Part shown: positions 5,125-58,960 of the stretch, piece by piece
How the letters are laid out: each line of letters begins with the position of its first letter
Position numbering within the stretch: position 1 is the first letter of the stretch
Origin: Kineococcus xinjiangensis
GTDB lineage: Bacteria; Actinomycetota; Actinomycetes; Actinomycetales; Kineococcaceae
Assembly (NCBI RefSeq): GCF_002934625.1
Contig: NZ_PTJD01000001.1
Location: 248,001 to 312,000 of the forward strand
Direction: 5' to 3'
Length of the DNA: 64,000 nt
The notes under the pieces: model-generated
Seen by the model: the letters and a program-made list of their open reading frames with translations, nothing else
Database searches by the model: none
Told to the model about the DNA's origin: nothing
Made by a program: the position numbers and the translations under genes

Positions 5125-5712
5125 TCAGCTCTTCTCTCTCGGGTCGGACGGGTTCTGGGCGTCGTCCCCGGACGGGACGAGCCCCTGCAACGCGGCCCAG
5201 CGCGGGTCGGCGTTCTGGTGGGAGTGGTCGGGGTCCTCCGCGAGGTGGGCGCCGCAGTCGACGCACAGTCCCGGGCAGTCGTCCTCGCACACGGGCTGGA
5301 ACGGCAGGGCGAGCACGACCGCGTCGCGCACCACCGGCTCCAGGTCCAGCAGGTCGCCGTCGAGGCAGTGCAGCTCGTCGTCGTCCTCGGTGCTGGCCCG
5401 CTGCTCGTACGTGTAGAGCTCCTGCAGCTCCACCCGGACGTCGCGCTCGAGGTCGTCGAGGCAGCGCACGCACTCGCCCCTGACGCGGCCGGAGGCCGTG
5501 CCCGAGACGAGGACGCCCTCCATGACGGCCTCGAGGCGGAGCTCGAGGACGAGGTCGCTGCCCTCGGGGACGGCGATGACCTCGGTGCCGAGGTCGGCCG
5601 GGGCGGGCACGGTGCGCTCGACCTTGCGCATCGAGCCCGGGCGGCGGCCCAGCTCGTGCGTGGACAGCACGAGCGGCGCCTTCGGGTCGAGGTGACCCGC
5701 CTGCTCCCTCAC
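5125..5712 (-). CDS. DUF177 (YceD-like) protein
   Basis: This is a 195-aa member of the DUF177/YceD family, which almost always precedes rpmF and has been linked to 23S rRNA accumulation or processing in other organisms. The typical features are the CVRCLDDLERDVRVELQELY motif in the middle and a C-terminal Cys cluster CEDDCPGLCVDCGAHL. I chose GTG 5712 because a GAGGGA ribosome site sits just upstream and the protein begins VREQAGHLDPKAPLVLSTHELGRRPG as expected. The frame stays open to 5850, but the extra 46 residues are low-complexity Pro/Arg/Ser. Confidence 0.9.
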   Translation of the reverse strand: MREQAGHLDPKAPLVLSTHELGRRPGSMRKVERTVPAPADLGTEVIAVPEGSDLVLELRLEAVMEGVLVSGTASGRVRGECVRCLDDLERDVRVELQELYTYEQRASTEDDDELHCLDGDLLDLEPVVRDAVVLALPFQPVCEDDCPGLCVDCGAHLAEDPDHSHQNADPRWAALQGLVPSGDDAQNPSDPREKS

Positions 5713-5907
5713 GAACGCTCCCTCATCGGTGATCCCCCGGTGCGCGGATCGCGGAGACCGCGGAACCGCACCGGCGCTGGACGGCCCCGACACCCGTGGT
5801 CGGCTCCACCCGGAGGGGTGGCGCCGCTCACCAGCGTCGAGGCCAACCACCAGCCTAGCCGAGCGGAACGACCTCTCCCAAACCGCAGGCCGGGCGGGTG
5901 GCCGGAC

Positions 5908-6429
5908 TCAGGAGCCGCCGTCGCCGGAGCGCGCCGCGGGCTCCTCGGCGGCGGGTGCCTCCGCCTCGTCCCCGCCTGCCTCGGCGCGGCGGCTGCGCAG
6001 CCGCTCGCGCCCGCGGGCGGCCTGCTGCAGCAGCCGCTGGACCTCCGACTCGAAGTCGGCGAGCTTGCCGTCGCACCAGTCGTCGGCGTCGCTGCGCAGC
6101 CGCGCCGCCTCCTCCCGCGCGCTGGCGACGATGTGCTCGGCGCGCTCGCGGGCGGCCCGCATGACGGCCTGCTGCTCCACCAGTTCGTCGGCGCGGGCGC
6201 GGGCGTCGGCGACGACGTGCTCCGCCTCGGCGCGGGCGGCGGTGAGGACGTCGTCGCGGGCGGCGAGGACGTCACCGGCCTGCTGGACCTCCACCGGCAG
6301 CAGTCGCCGGATGTCGGAGACGAGCCGCAGCACGTCCTCGCGGTCGACGACGCAGGACGTGGACATGGGGATGCCTCGCGCCCCCGTCACGACCGCCGCG
6401 AGCTGGCCGAGCTTCTCGTGGACCTCCAC
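5908..6429 (-). CDS. SepIVA/DivIVA-like cell-division coiled-coil protein
   Basis: A 173-aa protein with an N-terminal VHEKLGQLAAVVTGARGIPMSTSCVVDREDVLRLVSDIRRLLP segment and a long alanine/glutamate/arginine coiled coil from about residue 55 to 140, then a Glu/Ala-rich acidic tail. By gene context (coaD - this gene - DUF177 - rpmF - rnc - mutM - smc) and architecture it corresponds to mycobacterial SepIVA (Rv2927c type), a septum-associated DivIVA-like protein; the name is inference from synteny and coiled-coil pattern. It starts at GTG 6429, two bases after the coaD stop. Confidence 0.8.
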   Translation of the reverse strand: MEVHEKLGQLAAVVTGARGIPMSTSCVVDREDVLRLVSDIRRLLPVEVQQAGDVLAARDDVLTAARAEAEHVVADARARADELVEQQAVMRAARERAEHIVASAREEAARLRSDADDWCDGKLADFESEVQRLLQQAARGRERLRSRRAEAGGDEAEAPAAEEPAARSGDGGS

Positions 6430-6431
6430 GA

Positions 6432-7019
6432 CTACCTGCCTTCCTCTGGCTGGACTGCCTCTGCTGCCGCTTGCCGCTGCCCGTCGGTCCCGCCGTGGCG
6501 CCCCTGCGCCGCGCGCCGCTGCTCCAACCGCTCCAACAGCGCGGGCAGCACGGTGGCCGGGACGAGCCCGGCGACGTCGCCGCCGTGACCGGCGACCTCC
6601 TTCACCAGGCTGGAGGAGATGTGCTCGTAGCGGGGGTCGCCCGCGAGGAACACGGTCTCCACCTCCTGGAGGTGGCGGTTCATCAGGGCCATCGGCAGCT
6701 CGTAGGCGAAGTCGGTGCCGCCGCGCAGGCCCTTGACCACCACGGGGGCGTCGAGCTCGCGGCAGTGGTCGACGAGCAGGCCGGTGGGCAGCGCGTGGAC
6801 CACGACCCGCTGCGCCTCGGGGGTGCCGGCGACGGACTCACGGACCATCGCGACGCGCTCGTCGAGGGTGAAGAGGGGGTCCTTGGCGGGGTTGGCCGCG
6901 ACGGAGACGACGACCTCGTCGAAGAGGCGCGCGGCGCGGAGGATCACGTCGACGTGGCCGACGGTCACGGGGTCGAAGCTGCCCGGGCACACGCAGCGGC
7001 GGGCGGGGACCTCGGGCAC
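6432..7019 (-). CDS. coaD: Phosphopantetheine adenylyltransferase
   Basis: CoaD transfers AMP from ATP to 4'-phosphopantetheine, the penultimate step of coenzyme A synthesis. The nucleotidyltransferase motif CPGSFDPVTVGHVDVI (T/H-x-G-H) is at residues 11-26, GLRGGTDFAYELPMALMN is central, and the second motif ISSSLVKEVAGHGGDV is near residue 132. The protein is 195 aa; the usual length is about 160, and the extra residues are a disordered Gln/Glu/Gly-rich C-terminus. It is tightly spaced with sepIVA downstream. Confidence 0.95.
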   Translation of the reverse strand: MPEVPARRCVCPGSFDPVTVGHVDVILRAARLFDEVVVSVAANPAKDPLFTLDERVAMVRESVAGTPEAQRVVVHALPTGLLVDHCRELDAPVVVKGLRGGTDFAYELPMALMNRHLQEVETVFLAGDPRYEHISSSLVKEVAGHGGDVAGLVPATVLPALLERLEQRRAAQGRHGGTDGQRQAAAEAVQPEEGR

Positions 7020-7112
7020 GGGCAGAACCTAGCAGCGCCGGACCACGCCGCCGCGCTCCGCGGCCCCCGCCCCCACCCGTGCGGGCGCCCCCGCCAGTTC
7101 CGGACGGCCGGT

Positions 7113-46579: not shown

Positions 46580-49150
46580 GTGCTGCAGCTCACCTGGGCG
46601 CAGCTGCGCGCCCACACCGGCAGGCTCGTCGCCTCCGGGCTCGCCGTCGTCATCGCCGTCGCCTTCGTGGTGGCGACGCTGACCCTCAACGCCAGCACCC
46701 GCGCGAGCATGCTGCAGGCGGTGGGTGCCCAGTACGTGGGCAGCGACGTGGTGGTGCGCTTCGACCCCACTGCGGCGGCGCCGGTGGAGGAGCTCTCGAC
46801 CGGTGACGGCACGGACGGGGCGACCGCACCGGGCGAGGACCCGCAGGCGCAGGCGCTGCGGTCGGCCGCCGCCCGGCTCCAGGCGCTGCCCGGGACCGCG
46901 GCCCTCAGCCTCGACACGAGCGCCCACTCCACCGCGCGCATCGAGGGACGGCAGGGCAGCCACTTCGTGGCCGTCGAGTCCGTCGCCGCACCCGGCCCGC
47001 TGCGCTGGCAGCGGACCTCCTCCGGCCGGCTCCCCGAGCGCGCCGGCGAGGTCGCCGTCTCCGAGCGCACCGGCGCAGCGGTCGGCACCACGATCGTCCT
47101 CGACGTGCCGGGCCCGGTCGAGGAGGCCCCCGACGGCGGCACCACCCAGGGGACGCGCCCCCACGAGCTGCGCGTCGTCGGCGTCGTCGACCTGCGCGGG
47201 GACCCGTCGGCGGGTTTGGGCGGGCGCCTCTTCGCCCTGGAACCGGACGTGCGGACCGCCGGCGGCACCCCCGACGCCGTGCGCCTCACCGCGGCCGCGG
47301 GGACGGATCCGGACCGGGTGCGCGTGGAGGCCGCCCGCGCCCTGGCCGGCGCGCCCGTCACCGTCCTCTCGGGGGAGGAGACCGCCGAGGAGATCGCCGC
47401 CGCGTACACCGGGGAGGCGGCGGGGCTGGCCGCCGTCCTGCTGTCCTTCGCGGCCGTCGCGGTCGTCGTCGCGGGCCTGGTCATCGCCAACACCTTCGCG
47501 GTGCTGCTGGCGCAGCGGACCCGGGAGCTGGCGCTGCTGCGCTGCGTGGGCGCGCACTCGCGGCAGGTGCGGCGCGGGGTGCTGGCCGAGGCTGCGGCGA
47601 TGGGCCTGGTGGCCTCGGTGCTGGGGATCGCCGGCGGCATCGGGCTGGCCGCCGTGGTGTCCGCGGTCGTGGCGGGCACCGACTCCCCCATCCCCCTGGG
47701 CACCGTCGTCGTGCCGCCGTCTGCGGTGGGGATCGGCCTGCTGCTCGGGGTCGGCGTCACGGTCGTCTCCGCGCTGCTGCCCGCGCGGGCGGCGACCCGG
47801 GTGTCGCCGCTGGCGGCGCTGCGGCCGCTGGACCCGGCGCCGCTGCGCTCCGGGGGCGGGCTGCTCCGGCTGGTCGCGGGACTGCTGCTGTTCCTGCCCT
47901 CGACCGCGGCGCTGCTGCTGTTCGCGGCGGTGGGGCAGCTCGTGCCGGCGGTGGGCGCGGGCCTCGGCAGCTTCCTGGGGGTGCTGCTGCTGGCCCAGCG
48001 GGCCGTGCCGCCGGTGGTGGCGCTGGCCGGGCGCCTCGTGGGGCCGGTGGGTGGAGTTCCCGGCCGCCTCGCCGCGGGCAACGCGCTGCGCAACCCGCGG
48101 CGCACCGCCGCGACCGCGACGGCGCTGCTCATCGGCGTGACCCTCACGACGACGATGGTCGTGGGCGCCTCCTCCACGCGGGCCACCGCGGACGGCCAGC
48201 TCGACGCGATGTACCCCGCGGACGTGGTGGTGGAGTCCCCGGAGGGGCTGCCGGGCGGGCTGCTGGAGCGGGTCCGGGCGGTGGACGGGGTGGACGCGGC
48301 CGCCGCCGTGCTGCGCGGGGACGTGACGGGCGGCCCGTTCGAGGGCTGGACCGCCTACGGCGTGGAGGCGGCGGAGGTGGCGCCGGTGCTGCGCTCCCCC
48401 GCCGGCGCGCCGCAGCCCGAGCCGGGCGTGGCAGTGCTGTCGCGTCAGGCCGCGAAGCTCGTCGACGTGCGCGACGGCGGCACGGTGAGCGCGGGCTCAC
48501 CGGCCCGGGAGTTCCGGGTCCGGATCGATCCCGAGACGGAGACGTTCCTCGTGCTCACCGCCGCCGACCTGCGCGGCCTCGACCCGGACGCGACGCCGGC
48601 GGCGCTGTGGGTGCGCCTCGACGACGGCCTGGACGCGCAGGCGCAGACGGAGCTGGTCATCGAGCTGGAGTCGCTCGTCGGGACGGCCGATCCGGGCGCG
48701 ATCGTCCACGGCGTGGTCACCGAACGGGCCGCGCTCGACGGCGTCCTCACCACGATGCTGCTCGTGGTGACGGGCCTGCTCGCGGTCGCGGTGGTCATCG
48801 CCCTCATCGGGGTCGGCAACACCCTGGCGCTGTCGGTGGTGGAGCGGCGGCAGGAGTCGGGGCTGCTGCGGGCGCTGGGCCTGACCCGCCGGCAGCTGCG
48901 CGCGACCCTCGCCTGGGAGGCGGTGCTGGTGTCCGGGGTGGCGGCGGTGCTGGGGGTGGCGCTCGGCACGGCCTACGGCCTGCTCGGCACGACGTCGGTG
49001 TTCGGCCTGTCGGGTGAGGTCGTGCTGGACGTGCCGTGGCTGCAGGTGGGCGGGGTGGTCGTGGCCGCCACGGCCGCGGGGGTGCTCTCCTCGGTGCTGC
49101 CGGCGCGGCGGGCGGCGCGGGTCTCCCCCGTCGTGGCGCTGGCGGCCTGA
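46580..49150 (+). CDS. FtsX-like ABC transporter permease
   Basis: An 856-aa permease with two FtsX domains: TM1 near residue 15-32, a large extracytoplasmic domain (residues 40-270), three helices (AGLAAVLLSFAAVAVVVAGLVIANTFAVLLAQRTRELALLRCVGAHSRQVRRGVL onwards), and a second set starting around residue 430 ending with the matching VIALIGVGNTLALSVVERRQESGLLRALGLTRRQLRATLAWEAVLVSG block. It works with the preceding ATPase, probably in export or mechanotransmission rather than uptake. The substrate is unknown. Confidence 0.94.
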   Translation: MLQLTWAQLRAHTGRLVASGLAVVIAVAFVVATLTLNASTRASMLQAVGAQYVGSDVVVRFDPTAAAPVEELSTGDGTDGATAPGEDPQAQALRSAAARLQALPGTAALSLDTSAHSTARIEGRQGSHFVAVESVAAPGPLRWQRTSSGRLPERAGEVAVSERTGAAVGTTIVLDVPGPVEEAPDGGTTQGTRPHELRVVGVVDLRGDPSAGLGGRLFALEPDVRTAGGTPDAVRLTAAAGTDPDRVRVEAARALAGAPVTVLSGEETAEEIAAAYTGEAAGLAAVLLSFAAVAVVVAGLVIANTFAVLLAQRTRELALLRCVGAHSRQVRRGVLAEAAAMGLVASVLGIAGGIGLAAVVSAVVAGTDSPIPLGTVVVPPSAVGIGLLLGVGVTVVSALLPARAATRVSPLAALRPLDPAPLRSGGGLLRLVAGLLLFLPSTAALLLFAAVGQLVPAVGAGLGSFLGVLLLAQRAVPPVVALAGRLVGPVGGVPGRLAAGNALRNPRRTAATATALLIGVTLTTTMVVGASSTRATADGQLDAMYPADVVVESPEGLPGGLLERVRAVDGVDAAAAVLRGDVTGGPFEGWTAYGVEAAEVAPVLRSPAGAPQPEPGVAVLSRQAAKLVDVRDGGTVSAGSPAREFRVRIDPETETFLVLTAADLRGLDPDATPAALWVRLDDGLDAQAQTELVIELESLVGTADPGAIVHGVVTERAALDGVLTTMLLVVTGLLAVAVVIALIGVGNTLALSVVERRQESGLLRALGLTRRQLRATLAWEAVLVSGVAAVLGVALGTAYGLLGTTSVFGLSGEVVLDVPWLQVGGVVVAATAAGVLSSVLPARRAARVSPVVALAA

Positions 49151-50239: not shown

Positions 50240-50310
50240 GAGGATCGCGCCGTCATCGCGCCGACTGCGGACGTTCGGAGGGGCGGGTCGCGTGGCTCAG
50301 TGATCGTCTG
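50240..50310 (+). repeat. Degenerate cassette repeat (weak copy)
   Basis: ACTGCGGACGTTCGG followed by CTCAGTGATCGT resembles the left half of the strong copies (TTGAGGACGTTCGCC...TGATCG). It abuts the truncated 3' end of the NUDIX gene. Confidence 0.35.
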
Positions 50311-50653
50311 GATGGCTGAGGACGCCCTGCAGCATCTGCTGGTGCTGAGGATGTGCGCAGGTGCAGCTCGGCGCCGGACCCGCACCGGCCAGGGGCAGCC
50401 GGGAAGCGGGCTCCCTGTCATGGTCGCGGACGTCGATGCGCAGCTCCTCGCGCAGCTCTCGGCGTAGGGTCTCCACCTCGGACTCTCCCGGTTCCAGGTG
50501 TCCTCCGGGCAGAGCCCAGGCCTTGGGGTAGGCGCGGCGTCGGGCGCTGCGCAGGGCGAGCAGCACGCGGTCTGCCTCGATCAGGTCTCCAGCGACCACT
50601 CGGTGCACCAGCGAAGACAACCAGAGGATCGCGGCACGTCCACGCCGGTTCAT
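50297..50653 (-). CDS. NUDIX hydrolase, C-terminally truncated
   Basis: NUDIX enzymes hydrolyse nucleoside diphosphates linked to another group. The 118-aa product has a complete NUDIX box, GHLEPGESEVETLRRELREELRI, in the context AYPKAWALPGG. After it comes only DVRDHDREPASRLPLAGAGPAPSCTCAHPQHQQMLQGVLSHPDDH, which lacks the expected C-terminal strands and helix. Neither other frame restores them convincingly. The stop falls in a copy of the dispersed repeat, suggesting truncation at a recombination boundary. Confidence 0.72.
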   Translation of the reverse strand: MNRRGRAAILWLSSLVHRVVAGDLIEADRVLLALRSARRRAYPKAWALPGGHLEPGESEVETLRRELREELRIDVRDHDREPASRLPLAGAGPAPSCTCAHPQHQQMLQGVLSHPDDH

Positions 50654-50726
50654 GCCGGGGCCCGCGCTGCGGCGGTGGCGGACGTCGGTCGGCTGATCGA
50701 TCGAGGCTCGGTGGCAGCATGGTGCG

Positions 50727-51611
50727 ATGCCGTGGTGGGCGCCCTGGAGGCGGCAGGAGGATGCACCGGCCGTCGCCGCGTCCGCACCTTCGGCGGGGCC
50801 GCCTGCCGACCCGCTGGACCTGCTGGGTACGGGCGGGCATGGGGAGCGGGTGCTTCCGGTGCCGTTGCAGGCCGGGGACCTCGTGCGCCCCGATGGAGGA
50901 GAACTGCACGAACCGGTGCTGTGGCTGAGCCGGGGCCCGGCCGAGCCCGGGGCGTGGGCGGCGCTGCGGGCGGAGCACGCCCGGACGGGGCTGTGGCCGT
51001 TGTTGTTGCACGGCCTGGGTGAGGGCGAGGACGAGCGACGGCCGTGGGTCGCGGGGGAACTGAGCCCGCCCGCGGAGCGGTCGACCCCGGGAGATCACTC
51101 CGCGGAGGCGGTGCTGAGCACGTGGTGGGAGTGGCACGGCTGGGAGGACTGGGGCGATCCCGATGTCCTGCAGTCCATGGCCCCCTACGACCGGCGGTGG
51201 CCGGGTCTGGCGCCGGCGCTGCCGCTGCGCGATGACCCCGACCGGGTGGCTGACGCCCGTGCCGAGGAACTGCGCCGAACGCTGCGTCCTGCGCCACGGC
51301 TGGGGCTGGTGGCCGCCGAGCGCGGAGCCGAAGCCCTGACCGCCGTCGGCTGGGGCGGGCCGATGCAGTTCGTGGACGACATCGCCGAACTCTCGGCGGT
51401 GGTGCGCTCCTGGGAGGAGCGCTTCGGCGCTCGGGTCGTCGGCGTGGGTTTCGCCCACCTCCACCTCAGCGTCGCAGCGCCTCCCCGGACCTTCGAGGAA
51501 GCGCTGCCGATCGCAGCCGAGCACGTCGTCTCTCACGACGAGAACACCGACCTGCACCTCTGCGCCCGCTCCCTCGTCGACGCGCGCTCCTGGTCCTTCT
51601 GGTGGGACTGA
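50727..51611 (+). CDS. DUF4253 domain protein
   Basis: A 294-aa protein with a variable Pro/Ala-rich N-terminus and a C-terminal DUF4253 domain: GLWPLLLHGL, LGLVAAERGAEALTAVGWGGPMQFVDDIAELSAVVRSWEERFGARVVGVGFAHLHLSVAAPPRTFEEALPIAAEHVVSHDENTDLHLCARSLVDARSWSFWWD. The function of DUF4253 is unknown. It stands alone between repeat-containing gaps. ATG 50727 is used; an out-of-frame ATG lies at 50719. Confidence 0.82.
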   Translation: MPWWAPWRRQEDAPAVAASAPSAGPPADPLDLLGTGGHGERVLPVPLQAGDLVRPDGGELHEPVLWLSRGPAEPGAWAALRAEHARTGLWPLLLHGLGEGEDERRPWVAGELSPPAERSTPGDHSAEAVLSTWWEWHGWEDWGDPDVLQSMAPYDRRWPGLAPALPLRDDPDRVADARAEELRRTLRPAPRLGLVAAERGAEALTAVGWGGPMQFVDDIAELSAVVRSWEERFGARVVGVGFAHLHLSVAAPPRTFEEALPIAAEHVVSHDENTDLHLCARSLVDARSWSFWWD

Positions 51612-51894
51612 CCCGCCCCGGCTGCACCATCCTCGTCAGCGTGCTGCGGTTGCTCGACGCGGCGTGGGGACGCTTCCTCGAGGAGCGGGGACGCTGGAGC
51701 AGTTCATCCGAGCAGGCGACCTGCCGGAACTGCTGGCCTCAGCCCGCAGTGAGGTGGACGAGTCGATGGATCGCCGCCCCTGCGTGCGCGACGGCTGACG
51801 AGCCGCGCTCGCTCATCGGGGAGGGCTCAGGCGGCGTGGTCGCGCGCAGCCGGCGTCACGACCGGCAGATCGGTTCGCCTGGCAGACTTCGGCG
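51612..51894. other. Gap with a gene fragment and a weak repeat copy
   Basis: A short open stretch reading TLEQFIRAGDLPELLASARSEVDESMDRRPCVRDG-stop (about 51691-51798) looks like the C-terminus of a lost gene. CGCTCGCTCATCG at 51805 matches the left edge of the strong repeat at 56250. Confidence 0.35.
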
Positions 51895-52530
51895 ATGGCT
51901 GTCCACCACCCTGCGACGATCGTCCCCACCAAGCTGGAACTGCTGCAGGCATGGGTACCCCACCAGCCGTGGCTCGGCGGCGCCGACGTCTCCACCGTCA
52001 CCAGGCTCGGCTCCTACCGCTTCGACGACCCCGACGGCGAGGTCGGGATGGAGACGCACCTGCTCTCCACCGACGACGGCCGGGTCCTGCAGGTGCCGCT
52101 GACGTACCGAGGTGCTCCGAGGGTGGGGGCCGAAGGCTCGCTGATCACCACCATGACGCACACCACGCTCGGGAACCGCTGGATCTACGACGGCTGCCAC
52201 GACCCCGTCTACGTGACCGCCCTGGTCAGGGCGATCCTCACCGGCGGCCGCCACGCCGACCTGTACGCCGCCACCGACGGAGGACTGGTGCTGGAACCGG
52301 CGACGACACACGTGCGGGGCAGCGGATCCTGGTCCTCGGCCGACGTCCCGGCTCTGACGGCGCCGGTAGTCAGCCACCACGGGACGACGACGACCATCCA
52401 CGCCGGCGTCAGGCTCACCCTGCCCCGGGTCCTCGTCGCCACGACTCCGGCGGCCGACGCGTCGCTGAGCGGGACGTGGCCCGGCCAGGAGACCCCCGTC
52501 GTGCTCGCGACCGTGGACGGCTCATCCTGA
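51895..52530 (+). CDS. Maltokinase N-terminal-cap-like protein
   Basis: A 211-aa protein, MAVHHPATIVPTKLELLQAWVPHQPWLGGADVSTVTRLGSYRFDDPDGEVGMETHLLSTDDGRVLQVPLTYRGAPRVGAEGSLITTMTHTTLGNRWIYDGCHDPVYVTALVRAILTGGRHADL. This matches the stand-alone actinobacterial proteins related to the N-terminal cap of maltokinase (CG0192-like). No kinase domain follows, so it is not itself a maltokinase; its role is unknown. ATG 51895 is the start. Confidence 0.75.
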   Translation: MAVHHPATIVPTKLELLQAWVPHQPWLGGADVSTVTRLGSYRFDDPDGEVGMETHLLSTDDGRVLQVPLTYRGAPRVGAEGSLITTMTHTTLGNRWIYDGCHDPVYVTALVRAILTGGRHADLYAATDGGLVLEPATTHVRGSGSWSSADVPALTAPVVSHHGTTTTIHAGVRLTLPRVLVATTPAADASLSGTWPGQETPVVLATVDGSS

Positions 52531-52564
52531 CCGGACGTGCGAGTGGTGTTGCGGTCATCGCTGT

Positions 52565-52645
52565 GGTGCAGCGTGATCGGACACCCCGGATCGCGCACTG
52601 AGTACATCGATTGCGGATGTTCGGCCGTCGGTGATCGTGCAGTCT
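52565..52645 (+). repeat. Degenerate cassette repeat (weak copy)
   Basis: Contains GGATCGCGCACTGAG and then GATTGCGGATGTTCGGCCG followed by GTGATCGTGC; both parts match the strong copies (TGATCGCGCACTCAG; ATTGAGGACGTTCGCCG...TGATCGCGC). It lies between the maltokinase-cap-like and hydrolase genes. Confidence 0.45.
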
Positions 52646-52651
52646 GTCCCG

Positions 52652-53347
52652 ATGGTGACGATCTTCGTGCACGGTGCCGGTCGTGGGGGTGCCGCCGCGT
52701 GGTCCGCCCAACGCGATGCACCGGGCTTCGCCGGGGCGGTGTGGCTGGACTGGCGGGAGCAGGTGACCACGCCCGGCCCACTCGCGGCGGACTTCGTGGA
52801 CAGCCAGCTCGAGGCGATCCTCGCCCGTGCATGGACGTCCCTCGACGTGGTGGCTCACTCCGGTGGAGCGCTGGCGGCGCTGCTGGCCGCCCAGCGATCG
52901 CCGGGCCGGGTTCGCAGCTTGGTGCTGCTGGAGCCGGCCTGCTTCGCCCTGGCCCGTGGCCGCGCGGCGGTGGAGGAGCACGTCAGCGCCATGGCCCCGG
53001 CCCTCGCCCGCGCCGGCGACCCCGGCGTCGACGACGTGGAGTACGCCAGGCGCTTCTTCGCCGCCCTGGGAGCACCCGCGCCACCGGCCGAGACGCCGGA
53101 GCATCTGCTGGCGCTGCGACGGCTGCGCACGGTACCGGCCCCCTGGGCGGTCGACCTGGACCCGACGGTGGTCGAGCAGACGCCGACGCTCGTCATCACC
53201 GGGGGCTGGCTACCGCTGTACGAGGAGACAGCCCAGGCCCTGGCGGAGCTCAGCGCCAGGCACGAGGTGCTCACCGGCCACGGTCACCGCCCCCAGGACC
53301 ACCCCGACGCCAACGCCCTCATCCGCGCCTTCCAGGCGGCTCCGTGA
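52652..53347 (+). CDS. Alpha/beta-fold hydrolase
   Basis: A 231-aa serine-hydrolase-fold protein. VTIFVHGAGRGGAAAW is the oxyanion-loop strand, DVVAHSGGALAALLAA carries the nucleophile serine (H-S-G-G), TLVITGGWLPLYEETAQAL is the acid strand and LTGHGHRPQDHPD supplies the catalytic His. Substrate unknown. Start at ATG 52652, in phase with the first beta strand. Confidence 0.85.
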   Translation: MVTIFVHGAGRGGAAAWSAQRDAPGFAGAVWLDWREQVTTPGPLAADFVDSQLEAILARAWTSLDVVAHSGGALAALLAAQRSPGRVRSLVLLEPACFALARGRAAVEEHVSAMAPALARAGDPGVDDVEYARRFFAALGAPAPPAETPEHLLALRRLRTVPAPWAVDLDPTVVEQTPTLVITGGWLPLYEETAQALAELSARHEVLTGHGHRPQDHPDANALIRAFQAAP

Positions 53348-53370
53348 ACGCACGCAGGTCGGAAGACGCG

Positions 53371-53450
53371 TGCGTCTGCGGCCGCTCGTGATCCCGACCG
53401 CCAGCGCCATGAGCTGGCAGCAATCGTGTCGCAGTCCGCCTCTGGCGTTG
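53371..53450 (+). repeat. Degenerate cassette repeat (weak copy)
   Basis: GGTCGGAAGACG, then GCGGCCGCTCGTGATCCCGACC and a CATGAGCTGG motif. It resembles the GCTCATGATCGCGCC core of the strong copies, with several mismatches. Confidence 0.3.
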
Positions 53451-53464
53451 GGGAGGATGGCGAG

Positions 53465-54160
53465 GTGGATCCCGTGCTCGCCGCTCGCGCCGTGGTCGAT
53501 CACCGCTACCCCGAGGCGGTGGCAGCGGTCTTGGCCGGTAGCAGCGCCCGCGGAGAGGCCACGCCCACCTCAGACCTTGACATCGTGGTCGTCCTCAACG
53601 GCAGCGGCGGATCTTTCCGCGAGACGCTGCTGCACCAGGGGCAGGTGGTGGAGGTCTTCGCCTACACCGGCGATGAGGTGCGCCGATGGTGGGACATCGA
53701 CGCCACCGCCGGCCGCTGCACCCTGGCCCACATGTGCGCCCACGGCCTGCTGCTGCACGGCGAGCAGACCGGGCAGCGCATGCAGCACGACGCCCGCGTC
53801 TTCCTCGCCGCCGGACCACCGCCTGTCAGCGGCGAGGAGTTGCTGCTGCGTCGCTACCGCCTGACCGGGGCCGTCGACGACCTCCGCGACGCCACCGACC
53901 CAGGTGAGCGGCAGGTGATCGCCGCCGCGGTGCTTCTGGAGGCGGCGGAGCTGCACCTGATCACTCAGCGGCAGTGGCGCGGGCAGGGCAAGTGGCTCCT
54001 CCGGCGCCTGCGCGCCGCAGCCCCAGCCCTGGCCGAGCGGCTGCTGCAGGCGCACCACCACGTCACGAGCACCGGCGACGCACAGCCGATGGTGGACGCC
54101 GTGGAAGGCGTCCTACTCGACAGCGGGGGACGCCTGGCCGAGGGCTACCGACGCGGCTGA
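53465..54160 (+). CDS. Nucleotidyltransferase-domain protein
   Basis: A 231-aa protein with the polymerase-beta-like nucleotidyltransferase motif VLAGSSARGEATPTSDLDIVVVLNG (GS...DxD) at residues about 19-43 and FRETLLHQGQVVEVFAYTGDEVRRWWDID. A helical C-terminal domain follows (QVIAAAVLLEAAELHLITQRQWRGQGKWLLRRLRA). It resembles kanamycin-nucleotidyltransferase-like or AadA-like proteins in layout but substrate is unknown; a resistance role is not demonstrated. GTG 53465 follows a GGGGAGG site. Confidence 0.82.
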   Translation: MDPVLAARAVVDHRYPEAVAAVLAGSSARGEATPTSDLDIVVVLNGSGGSFRETLLHQGQVVEVFAYTGDEVRRWWDIDATAGRCTLAHMCAHGLLLHGEQTGQRMQHDARVFLAAGPPPVSGEELLLRRYRLTGAVDDLRDATDPGERQVIAAAVLLEAAELHLITQRQWRGQGKWLLRRLRAAAPALAERLLQAHHHVTSTGDAQPMVDAVEGVLLDSGGRLAEGYRRG

Positions 54161-54200
54161 GCGCCGCCCTCACCGACCCTGCCGCCTCCGCGAGGACAGT

Positions 54201-54259
54201 CCGCTCTTCGACAGTTGAGGACGTTCGCCGGCTGTCATGATCGCGCACTCAGCGCGGCG
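54201..54259 (+). repeat. Cassette repeat A (strong copy)
   Basis: Contains TTGAGGACGTTCGCCGGC followed by TGTCATGATCGCGC and ACTCAGCGCGGCG. It is nearly identical to copy B at 56250 over about 50 bp. Lies between the nucleotidyltransferase gene and the convergent minus-strand gene. Confidence 0.8.
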
Positions 54260-54274
54260 TGGGCGTGCGTTGCG

Positions 54275-54760
54275 TCAGACCAGACGCAGGACGCGGTCCT
54301 CCAGGTCGTCGAGGTCCTGCAAGGTCAGGACGGTCTCGGTGAGGGGGAGGCCGGCGTGCGGCCATTCCAGCGCGATGCCCACCCGCCCGTCGCGGGGCAG
54401 CTCGTCGATCCAGTAGGAGGCATCGACGCTGAAGGCGTCGTCGCCGCTGTTGTGCATCGCCCCGCGGGTGTGCGCCGGGCCGGCGTGGTCGTTGACGGTG
54501 ACGTGGAGGTGGGGGAAGGAGTAGGGGTTGTCCTTGGTGGGGCCGGGGTAGCGGCGCACTCGGCCGTAGGACCAGCTTCGGGCGTCGTTGGCACGCTCAC
54601 CCACTGCGCGGTACGCGAGCATCAGGTGCAGCCCACTGGGGTAGGCGACGACAGCTCGTAGGCCAGCGGCGATGTCAGGGGCACGGCTGAGGATGAGGGG
54701 GCCGTGCACGATTACCCCGAGGTCGTGGGGTGGTCTCCCGTGCCAGCTGTGCTCCTCCAT
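54275..54760 (-). CDS. Hypothetical protein
   Basis: A 161-aa protein, MEEHSWHGRPPHDLGVIVHGPLILSRAPDIAAGLRAVVAYPSGLHLMLAYRAVGERANDARSWSYGRVRRYPGPTKDNPYSFPHLHVTVNDHAGPAHTRGAMHNSGDDAFSVDASYWIDELPRDGRVGIALEWPHAGLPLTETVLTLQDLDDLEDRVLRLV. No signal peptide or membrane helix. Strand-rich, possibly beta-sandwich; I do not recognise a family. ATG 54760 is chosen; the frame extends through repeat E upstream, which is not likely to be coding. Confidence 0.78.
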   Translation of the reverse strand: MEEHSWHGRPPHDLGVIVHGPLILSRAPDIAAGLRAVVAYPSGLHLMLAYRAVGERANDARSWSYGRVRRYPGPTKDNPYSFPHLHVTVNDHAGPAHTRGAMHNSGDDAFSVDASYWIDELPRDGRVGIALEWPHAGLPLTETVLTLQDLDDLEDRVLRLV

Positions 54761-54850
54761 GACACGAGCATGGCAGTCATGCGGAAGGCACCTGGTTCCT
54801 TGATCTCCGGGTGCGGCGACTGCCCGTCCGACCTGGCGAGGTGTCACTGG

Positions 54851-54895
54851 TCGCTCATGATCGCGCCCCATCAGCGGCAAAGGCGGACGTTTCGC
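54851..54895 (+). repeat. Cassette repeat E (strong copy)
   Basis: CGCTCATGATCGCGCC followed by CATCAGCGGCAAAGGCGGA and CGTTTCG. About 80% identical to copy F at 56931. Lies between the hypothetical gene and the anti-sigma gene. Confidence 0.75.
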
Positions 54896-54906
54896 GCTGG
54901 AGCCGG

Positions 54907-55629
54907 TCATGGGGCGTTCGGCTCGTGGGGAGCCATCCACTCCGGGGTGCCGGAGGTGAAGGACACGGTGCTCCAGTACTCCTGCTGCTGAAGCGTCAGG
55001 CCGGTGTCGGTGGGCTTGCCCGGTGGGCTGAGGAACACGTGGAAGGTGCGGGAGTCGACCTCCGCGCTGGTCATGATCTCCCAGTCGGTGCCCACGCTGT
55101 GGCGGCAGGTGGCGAGGTCGCCGACGCAGATGGTGACCCCTGGGCCTTCGGAGTCGATGGTGATGAGCGGGTGGCCGTTGGAGACGTTGGCCTGCATCGT
55201 CCCGATGTGCGGCGGTAGCTGCTCGGGCACGACGAACGCGTCCGGGTAGCGCCGCATCGACTCCCGGATCTGGCCGCGCCAGTCATGGCTGTCGATGCCG
55301 GGACGATCGGGGGCATCGTCTGGCAGTGGCACGGGCAGCGGCAGCGTGAACTCACCGGCGGTGAAGTCCTCCGGGCTCGTGGTGGCGGTCGTGGTGGAGG
55401 GGACGGCCGGCATCAGCTGGCGGGTGCTGTCGTCGGTGCCTGGTAGCGCCAGGATTAGTGCGGTCGTGGCTACAGCGGTGGAGGTCGCTGCCGCGCTCCA
55501 GGCCAGGCGGTGACGACGCCTGGCTCGCACCGCGCCGGTCAGTGCTGCCTCTGGCAGCCACGCTGCTGCCTGCACCTCGCGGGTGTCGTCGTGCATGCGC
55601 TGCCGCAGCTGCTGCTCGAAGTCGATCAT
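54907..55629 (-). CDS. Putative anti-sigma factor (single-pass membrane protein)
   Basis: A 240-aa protein: cytoplasmic N-terminus MIDFEQQLRQRMHDDTREVQAAAWLPEAALTGAVRARRRHR, one transmembrane helix (LAWSAAATSTAVATTALILALPG, residues about 42-64), and an extracytoplasmic domain with two cysteines (ICVGDLATCRHS). No zinc-binding HxxxCxxC motif is seen. The role is inferred from its ATGA overlap with the upstream ECF sigma gene, which is the usual sigma/anti-sigma arrangement. Confidence 0.78.
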   Translation of the reverse strand: MIDFEQQLRQRMHDDTREVQAAAWLPEAALTGAVRARRRHRLAWSAAATSTAVATTALILALPGTDDSTRQLMPAVPSTTTATTSPEDFTAGEFTLPLPVPLPDDAPDRPGIDSHDWRGQIRESMRRYPDAFVVPEQLPPHIGTMQANVSNGHPLITIDSEGPGVTICVGDLATCRHSVGTDWEIMTSAEVDSRTFHVFLSPPGKPTDTGLTLQQQEYWSTVSFTSGTPEWMAPHEPNAP

Positions 55630-56123
55630 CGTGCCGCCTCCCGTGCCTTGTCCTCCACGCTCATCAGCTGCCGTAGCCGGCTCAGCCCGCGAGAGCAGTT
55701 GCTCTTCACCGTCCCCGCCGAGCAGCCCAGCTCCTCAGCGATACGGGCCTCGGACCAGTCCTCGAAGTAGCGCAGCACCACCACCGCACGCTGACGCGGC
55801 GGCAGCTGACGCAGCAGCGCCTCGACCCCGGCGCGCTGGGCCCGTGCCTGCGTGCCATCGCTGACCGGCTCGTCGTGCCACTGCTGCAGCTGGACCTCAC
55901 GCACGCGACGGCTACCGATGCGCCAGCGGTCGGTGATGCGACGCGCCATCACGACTCGGGCGTAGGCGTGGGGGTCCTCCACCCGCCGCCAGTGCCGGTA
56001 CGTGCGCTCCAGCACGTCCTGCACCAGGTCCTCGGCAGCGCCTCGCTCCCCGGTCAGCAACAGCGCCGTGCGCAGCAGCTGCGTCGTGCTGCCCCGGACG
56101 AACTGCTCGAACGAGTCCTCCAC
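55626..56123 (-). CDS. SigE-family ECF RNA polymerase sigma factor
   Basis: A 165-aa two-domain sigma factor: region 2 FEQFVRGSTTQLLRTALLLTGERGAAEDLVQDVLERTYRHWRRVEDPHAYARVVMARRITDRWR and region 4 LRQLPPRQRAVVVLRYFEDWSEARIAEELGCSAGTVKSNCSRGLSRLRQLM. This is the SigE/sigma-24 type common in actinobacteria. GTG 56123 has an AAGGAG site. It is followed by the overlapping membrane protein gene, its likely anti-sigma. Its targets are not visible. Confidence 0.92.
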   Translation of the reverse strand: MEDSFEQFVRGSTTQLLRTALLLTGERGAAEDLVQDVLERTYRHWRRVEDPHAYARVVMARRITDRWRIGSRRVREVQLQQWHDEPVSDGTQARAQRAGVEALLRQLPPRQRAVVVLRYFEDWSEARIAEELGCSAGTVKSNCSRGLSRLRQLMSVEDKAREAAR

Positions 56124-56249
56124 CAGGCTCCTTCCATAGCGCCTCGCCAGTACAAGACGACGCCGGAAGCACTCCGGTTGTCACCTGGACGAGACAAGCC
56201 CACAACGCCAGTGCCACTGCATGGTCAAGCGTCCCTTGCACCTCGCCGA

Positions 56250-56320
56250 CCGCTCGCTCATCGACAATTGAGGACGTTCGCCGGCCGTCATGATCGCGCA
56301 CTCAGCGCGGCGAAGTCGGA
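56250..56320 (+). repeat. Cassette repeat B (strong copy)
   Basis: ACCGCTCGCTCATCG, then CAATTGAGGACGTTCGCCGG, CCGTCATGATCGCGC and ACTCAGCGCGGCGAAGTCGG. The fullest copy of the family. TTCGCCG and CGGCGAA form inverted arms around the TCATGATCGCGC core. Confidence 0.8.
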
Positions 56321-56461
56321 TGCTGAGCTCAACACGCATCGGGGTCGGTGGTGCAGGGTGAACGGTGACTACATGTGGCAGCCAGCTCCTCCGGGACAGT
56401 CCCTGGTGTCTTCGATGCGGAGAGCGCCTCACCTGAGCATGATCAGGAATGGAGGTCGCTG

Positions 56462-56890
56462 ATGGGCACCCCGCTGATCGGCGCGTTGAACGTCCGAGCC
56501 ATCTACGCGTATGAGGTGGAAGACGCTTCAGCCCTCCCGGGACTGCGCATCCTGGGGGCGGTGATGGGCCTGCACGGCATCGCCATGAACGGTGGACTGG
56601 TCGTCGGAGGCATCGAGAACCTCTTCTTCAACGAGAGGATGCACGCGGTCGACGATGCGATCGAGGGCTTCCGATGGCTCGGGCTGGCAGACGTCGCCGC
56701 GCTCGTCGCCCGTGCCCGGGACGAGTACCTGCGCTTCCGCCCAAGCGGCTGGGAGGACATCTCCGACGAGGACGCGCTCATCTGGGACCAGCTCGACACC
56801 GCGTTCTTCGAGATCGCCGCCGATGAACGACTCGAGACGGCGGTGCCAGCCCGCCTGCAGGACATCGCGCCGGAGCTGCAGCCGTCCTGA
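56462..56890 (+). CDS. DUF4375/DMP19-like small protein
   Basis: A 142-aa acidic protein, MGTPLIGALNVRAIYAYEVEDASALPGLRILGAVMGLHGIAMNGGLVVGGIENLFFNERMHAVDDAIEGFRWLGLADVAALVARARDEYLRF...FEIAADERLETAVPARLQ. The MNGGL...N motif, the following leucine-rich helix pair and the acidic C-terminus resemble DUF4375 (DMP19 C-terminal) proteins; this is a tentative match. Start ATG 56462 has a GGAGG site. Confidence 0.7.
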   Translation: MGTPLIGALNVRAIYAYEVEDASALPGLRILGAVMGLHGIAMNGGLVVGGIENLFFNERMHAVDDAIEGFRWLGLADVAALVARARDEYLRFRPSGWEDISDEDALIWDQLDTAFFEIAADERLETAVPARLQDIAPELQPS

Positions 56891-56930
56891 CAGCTGCAAG
56901 ATCACCTCACCACGGCGGGGCGTGGCACGA

Positions 56931-56975
56931 GCGCTCATGATCACGCTTCATCAGTGGCGAAGTCGGAAGTTCGTG
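56931..56975 (+). repeat. Cassette repeat F (strong copy)
   Basis: GCGCTCATGATCACGC followed by TTCATCAGTGGCGAAGTCGG and AAGTTCG. Matches copy E (about 80%) and the right half of copy B. Confidence 0.75.
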
Positions 56976-57019
56976 GGCTGCCCCTCGCCCCTTCCTGACT
57001 CGTAGCCGATCATGCTGGT

Positions 57020-57439
57020 GTGCGATTGCTGAGGGTGTCGACGGCCCTGCTGGTTCTAGTCGCTGGAACATCGTGCAGCTCGCTGTCCTGCACGGATGTC
57101 GGGGCTGACAGTGGGGTGACGTTCGACTTGTCGGCGTTGCCCACCGTCGGGGCACCTTGGGAGGTCACTGCCTGCATCCAGGAGGTGTGCGATACCCGCA
57201 TCGTGCAGCCGGCAGACGGGACTTCCCCCTTCTTCCGCGCTGACGCCTTGACGGAGGACGCGGTTCAGGCGCGGCTGCAGGTCTTGGATGCCTCCGGGGG
57301 GACGGTGATGGACGACACGGTCGGTGTGACTCCTGTCCGCTACCAACCCAATGGGAAGGGCTGCGAGCCGATCGTGTGGCAGGCAGAGATGCTCGTCGGG
57401 GCAGACGGCGTCCTGCGGCAGGTCAAGGCAGCCTCATAG
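57020..57439 (+). CDS. Small exported hypothetical protein
   Basis: A 139-aa protein beginning MRLLRVSTALLVLVAGTSCSSLSC, a signal peptide with a possible lipidation cysteine. The mature part (DVGADSGVTFDLSALPTVGAPWEVTACIQEVCDTRIVQPADG...CEPIVWQAEMLVGADGVLRQV) contains three further cysteines and is beta-rich. No family recognised. GC is visibly lower than in the core genome. Confidence 0.7.
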   Translation: MRLLRVSTALLVLVAGTSCSSLSCTDVGADSGVTFDLSALPTVGAPWEVTACIQEVCDTRIVQPADGTSPFFRADALTEDAVQARLQVLDASGGTVMDDTVGVTPVRYQPNGKGCEPIVWQAEMLVGADGVLRQVKAAS

Positions 57440-57490
57440 ACCAGCGGGGCTTCCAGCCCGGCACCTACACCTGACGCATGTGACCGGACA

Positions 57491-57545
57491 TCCGCAGATC
57501 GGCAATTGAGAGCGTTTGCCGGCTGGTCATGATCGCGCCAGTAGC
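57491..57545 (+). repeat. Cassette repeat C (strong copy)
   Basis: CAATTGAGAGCGTTTGCCGG then CTGGTCATGATCGCGCCAG. Same orientation as the others, between two hypothetical genes. Confidence 0.75.
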
Positions 57546-57701
57546 TCGTCATGGGAGTGCGTCGCGGTGGTGGCTTACGGGTGGATGAAGGTGGATCTGG
57601 CCTAGAGAGCCGAGGGCCTGTGTCACGGTGCTGCGAAGAGGTTGACTCTCGAGGACCCCGGCCCAGCGATGGCCGGGTCTGGCCGTGGATGGAGGAGCGA
57701 A

Positions 57702-58073
57702 ATGGCGGAAAGTCCTGCTCGCCGTCCGGTGTCATGGATTCTGGGGACTGCGGTCGTGAGTGCGGCCGCTGCGGCGGCGTGGCTCACCTTCCCGGCGGAT
57801 GACTCGACCTGGCCGATGCCTGGCGTGCTGCTGACCACGGTGGCGCTCACTGTGGTCGCCAACCTGCGGATCGGTGGCTGGCTCTGCGTTCCGGTCGTCG
57901 TCGCTTCGGTCTTGGTCGGCCTCACGGTGGCCTTGAAGTACCACGGCTACTGGCAGGGGGACATGGGTTCTGTCATGTTCCTCATCGGCACCTACCTGAC
58001 CGCGGTTGCAGTGGTCGCGAGTGTGCTGACGACGATCGTGAAGTACTTGTTCAAGAGCCAGCCTGCATCGTGA
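57702..58073 (+). CDS. Small membrane protein of unknown function
   Basis: A 123-aa protein with about four transmembrane helices (VSWILGTAVVSAAAAAAWLTF; MPGVLLTTVALTVVANL; GGWLCVPVVVASVLVGLTVAL; MGSVMFLIGTYLTAVAVVASVLTTIV). No motif recognised. ATG 57702 follows a GGAGGAG site; the 20 residues upstream in the same frame are not needed. Confidence 0.75.
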   Translation: MAESPARRPVSWILGTAVVSAAAAAAWLTFPADDSTWPMPGVLLTTVALTVVANLRIGGWLCVPVVVASVLVGLTVALKYHGYWQGDMGSVMFLIGTYLTAVAVVASVLTTIVKYLFKSQPAS

Positions 58074-58087
58074 AGCGAGGATCACCG

Positions 58088-58160
58088 CTCGCGGATGCAC
58101 TCCTCGGCGAGCGAGGACGCTCAGCAGCCTTCATGATCGCGCCCGCAGCGCAGCAATTGT
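58088..58160 (+). repeat. Cassette repeat D (strong copy)
   Basis: CGCTCGC...GCGAGCG inverted arms, then GAGGACGCTCAGCAGCC, TTCATGATCGCGCC and CGCAGCGCAGCAATTG. Same orientation. Confidence 0.7.
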
Positions 58161-58215
58161 CGATGTGGCTGAGCGATTCCTGGCTGTGGTCGCATGCGGG
58201 CGGCAGGGTGGGGTG

Positions 58216-58872
58216 GTGACCTCGACATCCCCACCCGAGGCGGTGGGCCCGTCTTCCGGTTCACCACTGCCTCCGCAGGTGCAGGCCACCCTGGCCGCAC
58301 TGGTACCCGACGACGCCCTGACGGAGTCCTACCAGGGTTGGTCGAGGTCGCCAGGTCACCTGGACTACGACTGGGCCGTGGTGCCCAGGTCCGCGGTCTG
58401 GCACCGCCTCGGCTTCGACCCACCCACCCTGCCCAGCCTGGCCGGCGACGCCGTGCGGGAGCACTTCGCGGTGCACGGCCGCTACGGCAAGCCCTCGGAG
58501 TCGAGGCGGTCCGGCGACGCGTGCGCGCTGCCGGTCGCCGTGTTCTACCTGCCGGTGGACCTGCCCTGGGAGAAGGCGCAGTCCGGCGACGCTCTCTCCC
58601 GGGGCGCCACCTTCCTGTGGCTGCACGAGCCCTACGCCGGCCACCCATGGACGGCCGCGGTTCGCTGCCGCAACGAGCGCGATGACCGACGCAGCTTCAC
58701 CGTCGTTGAAGTCGCCGGTGTCCACCTCGGGGTGCAGGTGGACACCTACGGCCTGGCGCAGCTGTCGTGGACCCTGCGCCGAGGAGGCCGCGACGTACGC
58801 GCCATAGTCACCACCAAGCGCGATCCCAGCGCAGCCGTCCAGATGCTCCTCCACGACGGCGTCCTGACATGA
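58216..58872 (+). CDS. Hypothetical protein
   Basis: A 218-aa soluble protein: VTSTSPPEAVGPSSGSPLPPQVQATLAALVPDDALTESYQGWSRSPGHLDYDWAVVPRSAVWHRLGFDPPTLPSLAGDAVREHFAVHGRYGKPSESRRSGDACALPVAVFYLPVDLPWEKAQSGD...FLWLHEPYAGHPWTAAVRCRNERDD. No family, signal or membrane segment recognised. The GTG at 58216 is chosen; GTG 58165 would begin just after repeat D with an unrelated-looking lead. Confidence 0.7.
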   Translation: MTSTSPPEAVGPSSGSPLPPQVQATLAALVPDDALTESYQGWSRSPGHLDYDWAVVPRSAVWHRLGFDPPTLPSLAGDAVREHFAVHGRYGKPSESRRSGDACALPVAVFYLPVDLPWEKAQSGDALSRGATFLWLHEPYAGHPWTAAVRCRNERDDRRSFTVVEVAGVHLGVQVDTYGLAQLSWTLRRGGRDVRAIVTTKRDPSAAVQMLLHDGVLT

Positions 58873-58960
58873 CTCAACCAGCTTCCAACGACGTCGCCCA
58901 TACATCCGCAAACCGACATGAGAGCAAGATCATCCAGCCGCCGAGGCCCTCCACCCGCGC

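Follow-up and report, generated by a model that had tools for sequence, protein, structure and literature searches.

The window analysed here, a 64,000-nt stretch of the Kineococcus xinjiangensis contig NZ_PTJD01000001.1 (positions 248,001 to 312,000), contains two near-identical direct repeats, A and B, which bracket three minus-strand genes (Table 1). A first-pass annotation had described these as a hypothetical gene, an anti-sigma gene and a sigma factor gene. The sigma factor indeed exceeds the cut-off of the SigE family (TIGR02983, 162 bits versus 141.6), and its partner, which matches no family, is a putative anti-sigma gene, so labelled from its pairing with the sigma factor and from one apparent hydrophobic segment. 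The internal copy E that the annotation had also pointed out is present, between the hypothetical gene and the sigma pair. Because E splits it, the A-B block consists of two cassettes (about 54259-54878 and 54879-56311) rather than the single unit envisaged, and the succession of sites and genes continues on both sides, from about 50.2 to 58.9 kb. An Rfam scan of the window returned three tRNAs and nothing else.

Repeat A (54188-54259) and repeat B (56241-56312) share 63 of 72 bases, including uninterrupted matches of 18 and 26 nt (94.8% over 58 nt by blastn, E=6e-18). None of the window copies compared is as near to either of them as they are to each other, so that the original description of A and B as near-identical and of all other copies as diverged holds within the window. 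It does not hold genome-wide, since the nearest copy to A lies on another contig (C16:79848, 95%, versus 91% for B; 64 nt ungapped, 122 copies), and the same type of repeat recurs, less similar, on C30. A and B are the tails of two cassettes with unrelated genes, a nucleotidyltransferase gene and the sigma pair. Their high identity reflects a tail type common to other contigs and not a duplication left by insertion of the block, the recent insertion of which had been one earlier suggestion.

The sites are about 80 bp long, with the consensus AACRTCCGC-nn-ATCGRCA-nnnn-CGGACGTC-GCCGGCCG-CATGATCGCGC-nnnnn-GCGGCA-nnn-CGGAYGTT. The core CATGATCGCGC is preceded by GCCGGCCG and by a left arm of the form AACRTCCGC..ATCGRCA..CGGACGTC. 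The outer arms resemble inverted copies of one motif; pairing between them within a site was looked for and none was detected. The right half carries what we call the crossover motif, GCGGCA..CGGATGTT in K. xinjiangensis and GCGGGATGACCGTG in its Kineococcus relatives. Over 160 kb of K. radiotolerans, all 81 occurrences of this motif lie on one strand. The 12-mer GCGGGATGACCG is found 10-202 times per genome in 11 sister-genus genomes, four times in K. xinjiangensis, the motif of which differs, and 3-6 times in three outgroups, with 0-2 occurrences of the reversed pattern. In Kineococcus, the crossover motif is also seen as head-to-tail units of 26-29 bp, up to six in a row, with no genes between them.

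Using a sequence model built from 45 copies (R1), we identified at least 149 sites in the K. xinjiangensis genome at E<=0.1, a lower bound because only 150 candidates were scored. Nearly all of them (145/149) have another site within 5 kb, and 123 of 124 neighbouring pairs are co-oriented. Among 108 intervals of 250-4000 bp, taken from 125 of 148 model hits, 75 contain one gene, 17 none, 15 two and one three; the genes run with the sites in 55 cases and against them in 53, and overlap with a called gene was seen at 3 of 125 sites. The gene calls come from a simple script based on codon bias, which missed some small genes, such as 57020-57439, and array genes tend to have lower codon-bias scores than flanking genes. 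The arrays are probably longer than seen, because several contigs stop within them, at repeated elements.

Short repeats located between genes, two of which have a 26-nt identical run in common, could also be dispersed intergenic elements (resembling repetitive extragenic palindromes or miniature inverted-repeat transposable elements, or acting as terminators) exchanged by homologous recombination only. We consider this very unlikely, since the sites are clustered, keep one orientation whatever the direction of the genes and, as described below, accompany cassette copies that have divergent sites on either side. A role as terminators or promoters was likewise rejected: gene direction is independent of site direction, and the 50-59 kb region of the window yielded no terminator-like match and a single promoter-like one.

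In K. xinjiangensis, seven cassette pairs or groups occur at separate loci with unrelated flanks, at up to 95% identity. Two of them involve the window (58198-58924 with C16, 95%; 56976-57539 with C22, 79%). The upstream edge of six of the seven falls inside the right-half motif, after GCG(G/T)C. The boundaries are sharper in two other genomes. In K. radiotolerans, cassettes that are 98-99% identical are found at separate loci and diverge before and after GCGGGATGACCGTG; one cassette is present in three copies with three different contexts on either side. In a comparison of four genomes, direction with respect to the sites is preserved in 153 of 170 homologous segments, and a detected site is no more than 40 bp away for 217 of 680 segment ends, as against 14% for random positions.

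All these observations support the idea, to which we assign a probability of about 0.8, that A and B are sites of a chromosomal array of gene cassettes, and that these cassettes are exchanged by site-specific recombination. A cassette consists of one gene, at times two as in the sigma pair, plus a tail of about 60 bp in which the left arm comes first, then GCCGGCCG with the core CATGATCGCGC, and last a segment ending in GCGGC; the next cassette starts with the other half of the crossover motif (..CGGATGTT). Recombination inside or beside this motif would exchange cassettes, probably through a circular intermediate and by a tyrosine recombinase, most likely Xer-like, acting in trans. Exchange at the motif would account for sites in one orientation, for genes facing either way and for the same cassette at other loci with both contexts changed. 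The window array would be a satellite devoid of its own recombinase gene, similar to an integron array without intI.

Table 1. Sites and genes of the window array, with crossover-motif tandems and Xer-like genes at other loci
Feature	Position	Strand	Evidence or remark
Cassette array	50241..58924	+	First weak site to remnant left arm; one-orientation sites, genes between
Weak site (right half)	50241..50276	+	R1, 17.9 bits, E=7e-4
Weak site	52556..52622	+	R1, 14.8 bits, E=0.0065
Site	53346..53414	+	R1, 25.5 bits
Nucleotidyltransferase-domain gene, cassette with tail A	53426..54160	+	PF01909, E=4e-8
Site A, crossover motif from GCGGC at 54254	54196..54272	+	R1, 70.9 bits
Hypothetical gene, first cassette of the block, start codon uncertain	54275..54760	-	No family match; homologues in arrays of K. 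radiotolerans, G007 and G008
Site E, crossover motif from GCGGC at 54874	54840..54892	+	R1, 39.7 bits
Putative anti-sigma gene, second cassette	54907..55629	-	No family match; resembles L077 and a G008 array gene
SigE-family sigma factor, second cassette	55626..56123	-	TIGR02983 above cut-off
Site B, crossover motif from GCGGC at 56307	56247..56324	+	R1, 72.9 bits
DMP19-like gene, cassette	56375..56890	+	PF14300, E=1e-11
Site	56907..56972	+	R1, 19.4 bits
Hypothetical gene, cassette copy on C22 (79% DNA identity)	57020..57439	+	Open reading frame, blastn copy
Site	57485..57563	+	R1, 54.6 bits
Hypothetical gene, cassette	57642..58073	+	Open reading frame and codon bias
Site	58095..58159	+	R1, 37.2 bits
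Hypothetical gene, cassette copy on C16 (95% DNA identity)	58165..58872	+	Copy comparison
Remnant left arm without core, array end	58899..58924	+	Aligned to C16 copy
Tandem crossover-motif units	L114:16152-16285; L158:13192-13341; G010 C30:5193-5349		
Xer-like gene copies	L158:15087-15992; L114:15130-16010; L169:6568-7469; L115:8621-9556; L116:10936-11841; L162:10953-11939		Antiparallel to sites

Several results weigh against this explanation. In the pair shared by the window and C16, clear identity begins about 40 bp later than the motif, the downstream edges of the cassette copies vary, falling at GCGGC, close to the core or within the left arm about ATCCGC..TCGRCA, and some K. radiotolerans pairs break outside the motif. 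Direction relative to the sites has changed in 17 of the 170 segments, and 463 of the 680 segment ends are farther than 40 bp from a detected site, in a set that takes in partial homologies, insertion sequence (IS) copies and overlapping contig ends and in which undetected weak sites are among the distant ends. Neither strain-level polymorphism nor a circular cassette form was seen, no isolates having been compared. Finally, searches for the IntI, tyrosine and serine recombinase families revealed no dedicated recombinase gene that adjoins the arrays in each of the four genomes compared; in K. radiotolerans, none of three PF00589 matches lies at the arrays at 4.58-4.73 Mb, and no serine recombinase was found there.

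The system operates like the cassette array of an integron. As in sedentary chromosomal integrons and clusters of attC sites lacking integrases (CALIN), single-gene cassettes form long arrays, a repeat resembling a recombination site comes after each of them, always in one orientation, and near-identical tails stand behind unrelated genes. This shared anatomy raises the possibility of a classical integron remnant, with diverged attC sites and no integrase; CALIN are described as common elsewhere, with a few cases in Actinobacteria (PMC9024848). The sites also fold slightly better than their dinucleotide shuffles (mean z of -0.57 and -0.47 on the two strands for 60 sites, versus 0.02 for control stretches), and a short stem next to the Kineococcus motif, on which we do not rely, is weakly favoured (4.3 pairs versus 3.6 in shuffled sequences). 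However, the attC core sites RYYYAAC..GTTRRRY (PMC3053210) occur in none of 122 copies (shuffled mean 0.1), and the sites are conserved in sequence, which attC is not. None of six predicted pairs covaries, and complementarity of left and right arms is no higher within a site (p=0.93) or a cassette (p=0.35) than when arms are swapped. We thus rejected an attC-like hairpin, which neither covariation nor complementarity (same site, same cassette, or left arm alone) supports and for which the folding excess is slight. The IntI model TIGR02249 gave 13 partial matches in K. xinjiangensis, the best at 73.6 bits versus a cut-off of 265; no IntI above cut-off is present in this draft of 42 contigs, where a gene could lie in a gap, and no integrase was found beside its arrays. 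Moreover, unlike in integrons and CALIN, the genes face both ways equally and there are many array loci per genome. Because the integrase and attC tests fail, these arrays are not integrons by sequence, and we regard an integron remnant as improbable.

The 147 array proteins of K. xinjiangensis fall into 83 Pfam families, the most frequent being sigma factors (7), GNAT acetyltransferases (6) and IS110 transposases (5). The latter could suggest that RNA-guided recombinases of the IS110 type move the cassettes, as a bridge RNA directs recombination of target and donor DNA by such enzymes (PMC11208160). In locus L045, an IS110-type element (5621-7099), the transposase of which scores 133 bits, just below the NCBIfam cut-off of 140, splits a site within the crossover motif. 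This case looks like an insertion into the site, comparable to IS1111-group elements, which insert at one end of attC (PMC11187229), and we consider it very unlikely that IS110 enzymes move the cassettes. As in that group, the element inserts at the end of a cassette site; it would be a parasite of the array and not the array itself, and its target sequence differs. In both L041 and L045, at the end of the locus, a second repeated element has one of its ends directly against the same half-site.

The site family is restricted to Kineococcaceae among the genomes sampled. With strict filters, R1 matched 10 of 12 genomes of the family and none of 186 others from the same order. A second model made from Kineococcus sites (R2) matched, at E<=0.001, all 12 family genomes (10-124 matches each, 86 in K. 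xinjiangensis) and none of three outgroups. Site matches number 121 in G003 and 124 in G007. G003 corresponds to K. radiotolerans SRS30216, as 2000 bases of its contig C1 are 100% identical to plasmid NC_009660.1; the name Kineococcus is given to the relatives from this genome and from a K. vitellinus contig matching G005. A pattern scan of genome contigs retrieved five records, among which K. vitellinus carries an array; in the other four (Sphingomonadales, Agromyces, Nocardioidaceae and Myxococcales), the core and at most one further weak match were found, and no array.

Homologues of window cassette genes are present among the array genes of Kineococcus. The genes flanking the window array (46580-49150 on the left, from 60744 on the right) show synteny in five Kineococcus genomes, in which the two sides lie 6.5-13 kb apart, and none of the 11 array genes has a homologue at this orthologous locus in any of the five (tblastn, E<=1e-5). 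This fits the initial proposal that the repeats are recombination boundaries and the genes between them accessory. The orthologous intervals contain no convincing site: R1 found none, and the best single matches reach 9.4 bits in G003 and 12.9 bits in G007, compared with 37-73 for most window sites. As both the genes and convincing sites are missing, the array was either added at this variable locus or took the place of other sequence there. Further two-gene units, each combining a related sigma gene with a partner that may not be homologous to that of the window, are located between sites at L038, L043 (two units) and L044.

The best lead for the recombinase is an array-borne Xer-like gene, suggested by its sequence and position. 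Six copies were detected in the array stretches searched, which were those of G007 (three, two of them broken) and G008 (three); all lie in arrays or about 1 kb beside them and run antiparallel to the sites. The family resembles XerD (PDB 1a0p, E=1e-21) and scores far below the IntI cut-off. Among PF00589 matches of K. xinjiangensis, there is no close relative, the best being an XerC-like protein at about 33%. Its arrays may be without a local recombinase, through loss or from the outset; alternatively, a housekeeping Xer protein may act on them. Tentatively, Kineococcaceae could have independently evolved a cassette capture system with its own type of site, recognized as double-stranded DNA via the crossover motif, and an array-borne antiparallel Xer-type recombinase, although at present we would sooner bet against this full scenario than for it. 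The pdif modules of Acinetobacter also consist of single genes, flanked by short sites that are presumed substrates of Xer proteins (PMC7399989), and Xer relatives are present here. In view of the size and orientation rules of dif sites, these modules would differ from the long one-direction arrays and composite site of about 80 bp described here. Another Xer-like family, conserved in K. xinjiangensis, G003 and G008 (L060, L134, L149), was discarded as a candidate; by eye, two of its three members (L060:1426-2481 and L134:1036-2052) have a cysteine at the position of the catalytic tyrosine. Contig C1 of G007 carries near-identical tyrosine recombinase genes in adjacent pairs near 78, 166, 171 and 470 kb and 2.80 and 5.35 Mb (L131, L135, L138, L141, L144, L146), several at array loci. 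These pairs are reminiscent of recombinase-in-trio elements.

Complete integrons are reported to be lacking in this phylum, and integrons to be very rare in the group. If our interpretation is correct, integron-sized arrays would exist here nonetheless, including in the radiation-resistant K. radiotolerans, and their size, combined with an unrelated site, would mean that gathering genes as cassettes need not be bound to IntI and attC. They would also be a place to ask how a new gene gains its recombination-site tail, a question approachable here because A, B and C16:79848 have nearly the same tail behind different genes. Sequenced since 2008, K. radiotolerans offers a cultured strain with a finished genome in which to test the arrays. 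We found no report of cassette arrays in Kineococcus in the open-access literature, and in the main text of the K. radiotolerans genome paper the words 'repeat', 'cassette', 'integron', 'transposase' and 'mobile' are absent and 'integrase' occurs once (PMC2587704); novelty is claimed within the limits of this literature and of an analysis without isolates.

Concerning the cargo, PADLOC matches among the 147 array proteins belong to eight families with one member apiece, and we did not retain an interpretation of the arrays as defence islands. One array protein of K. xinjiangensis is a rifampin ADP-ribosyltransferase, and reverse-transcriptase models match as well. Sigma factors are the commonest array gene family both in this genome (A3; 7/147) and in G003 (A5; Sigma70 region 4, 7/112).
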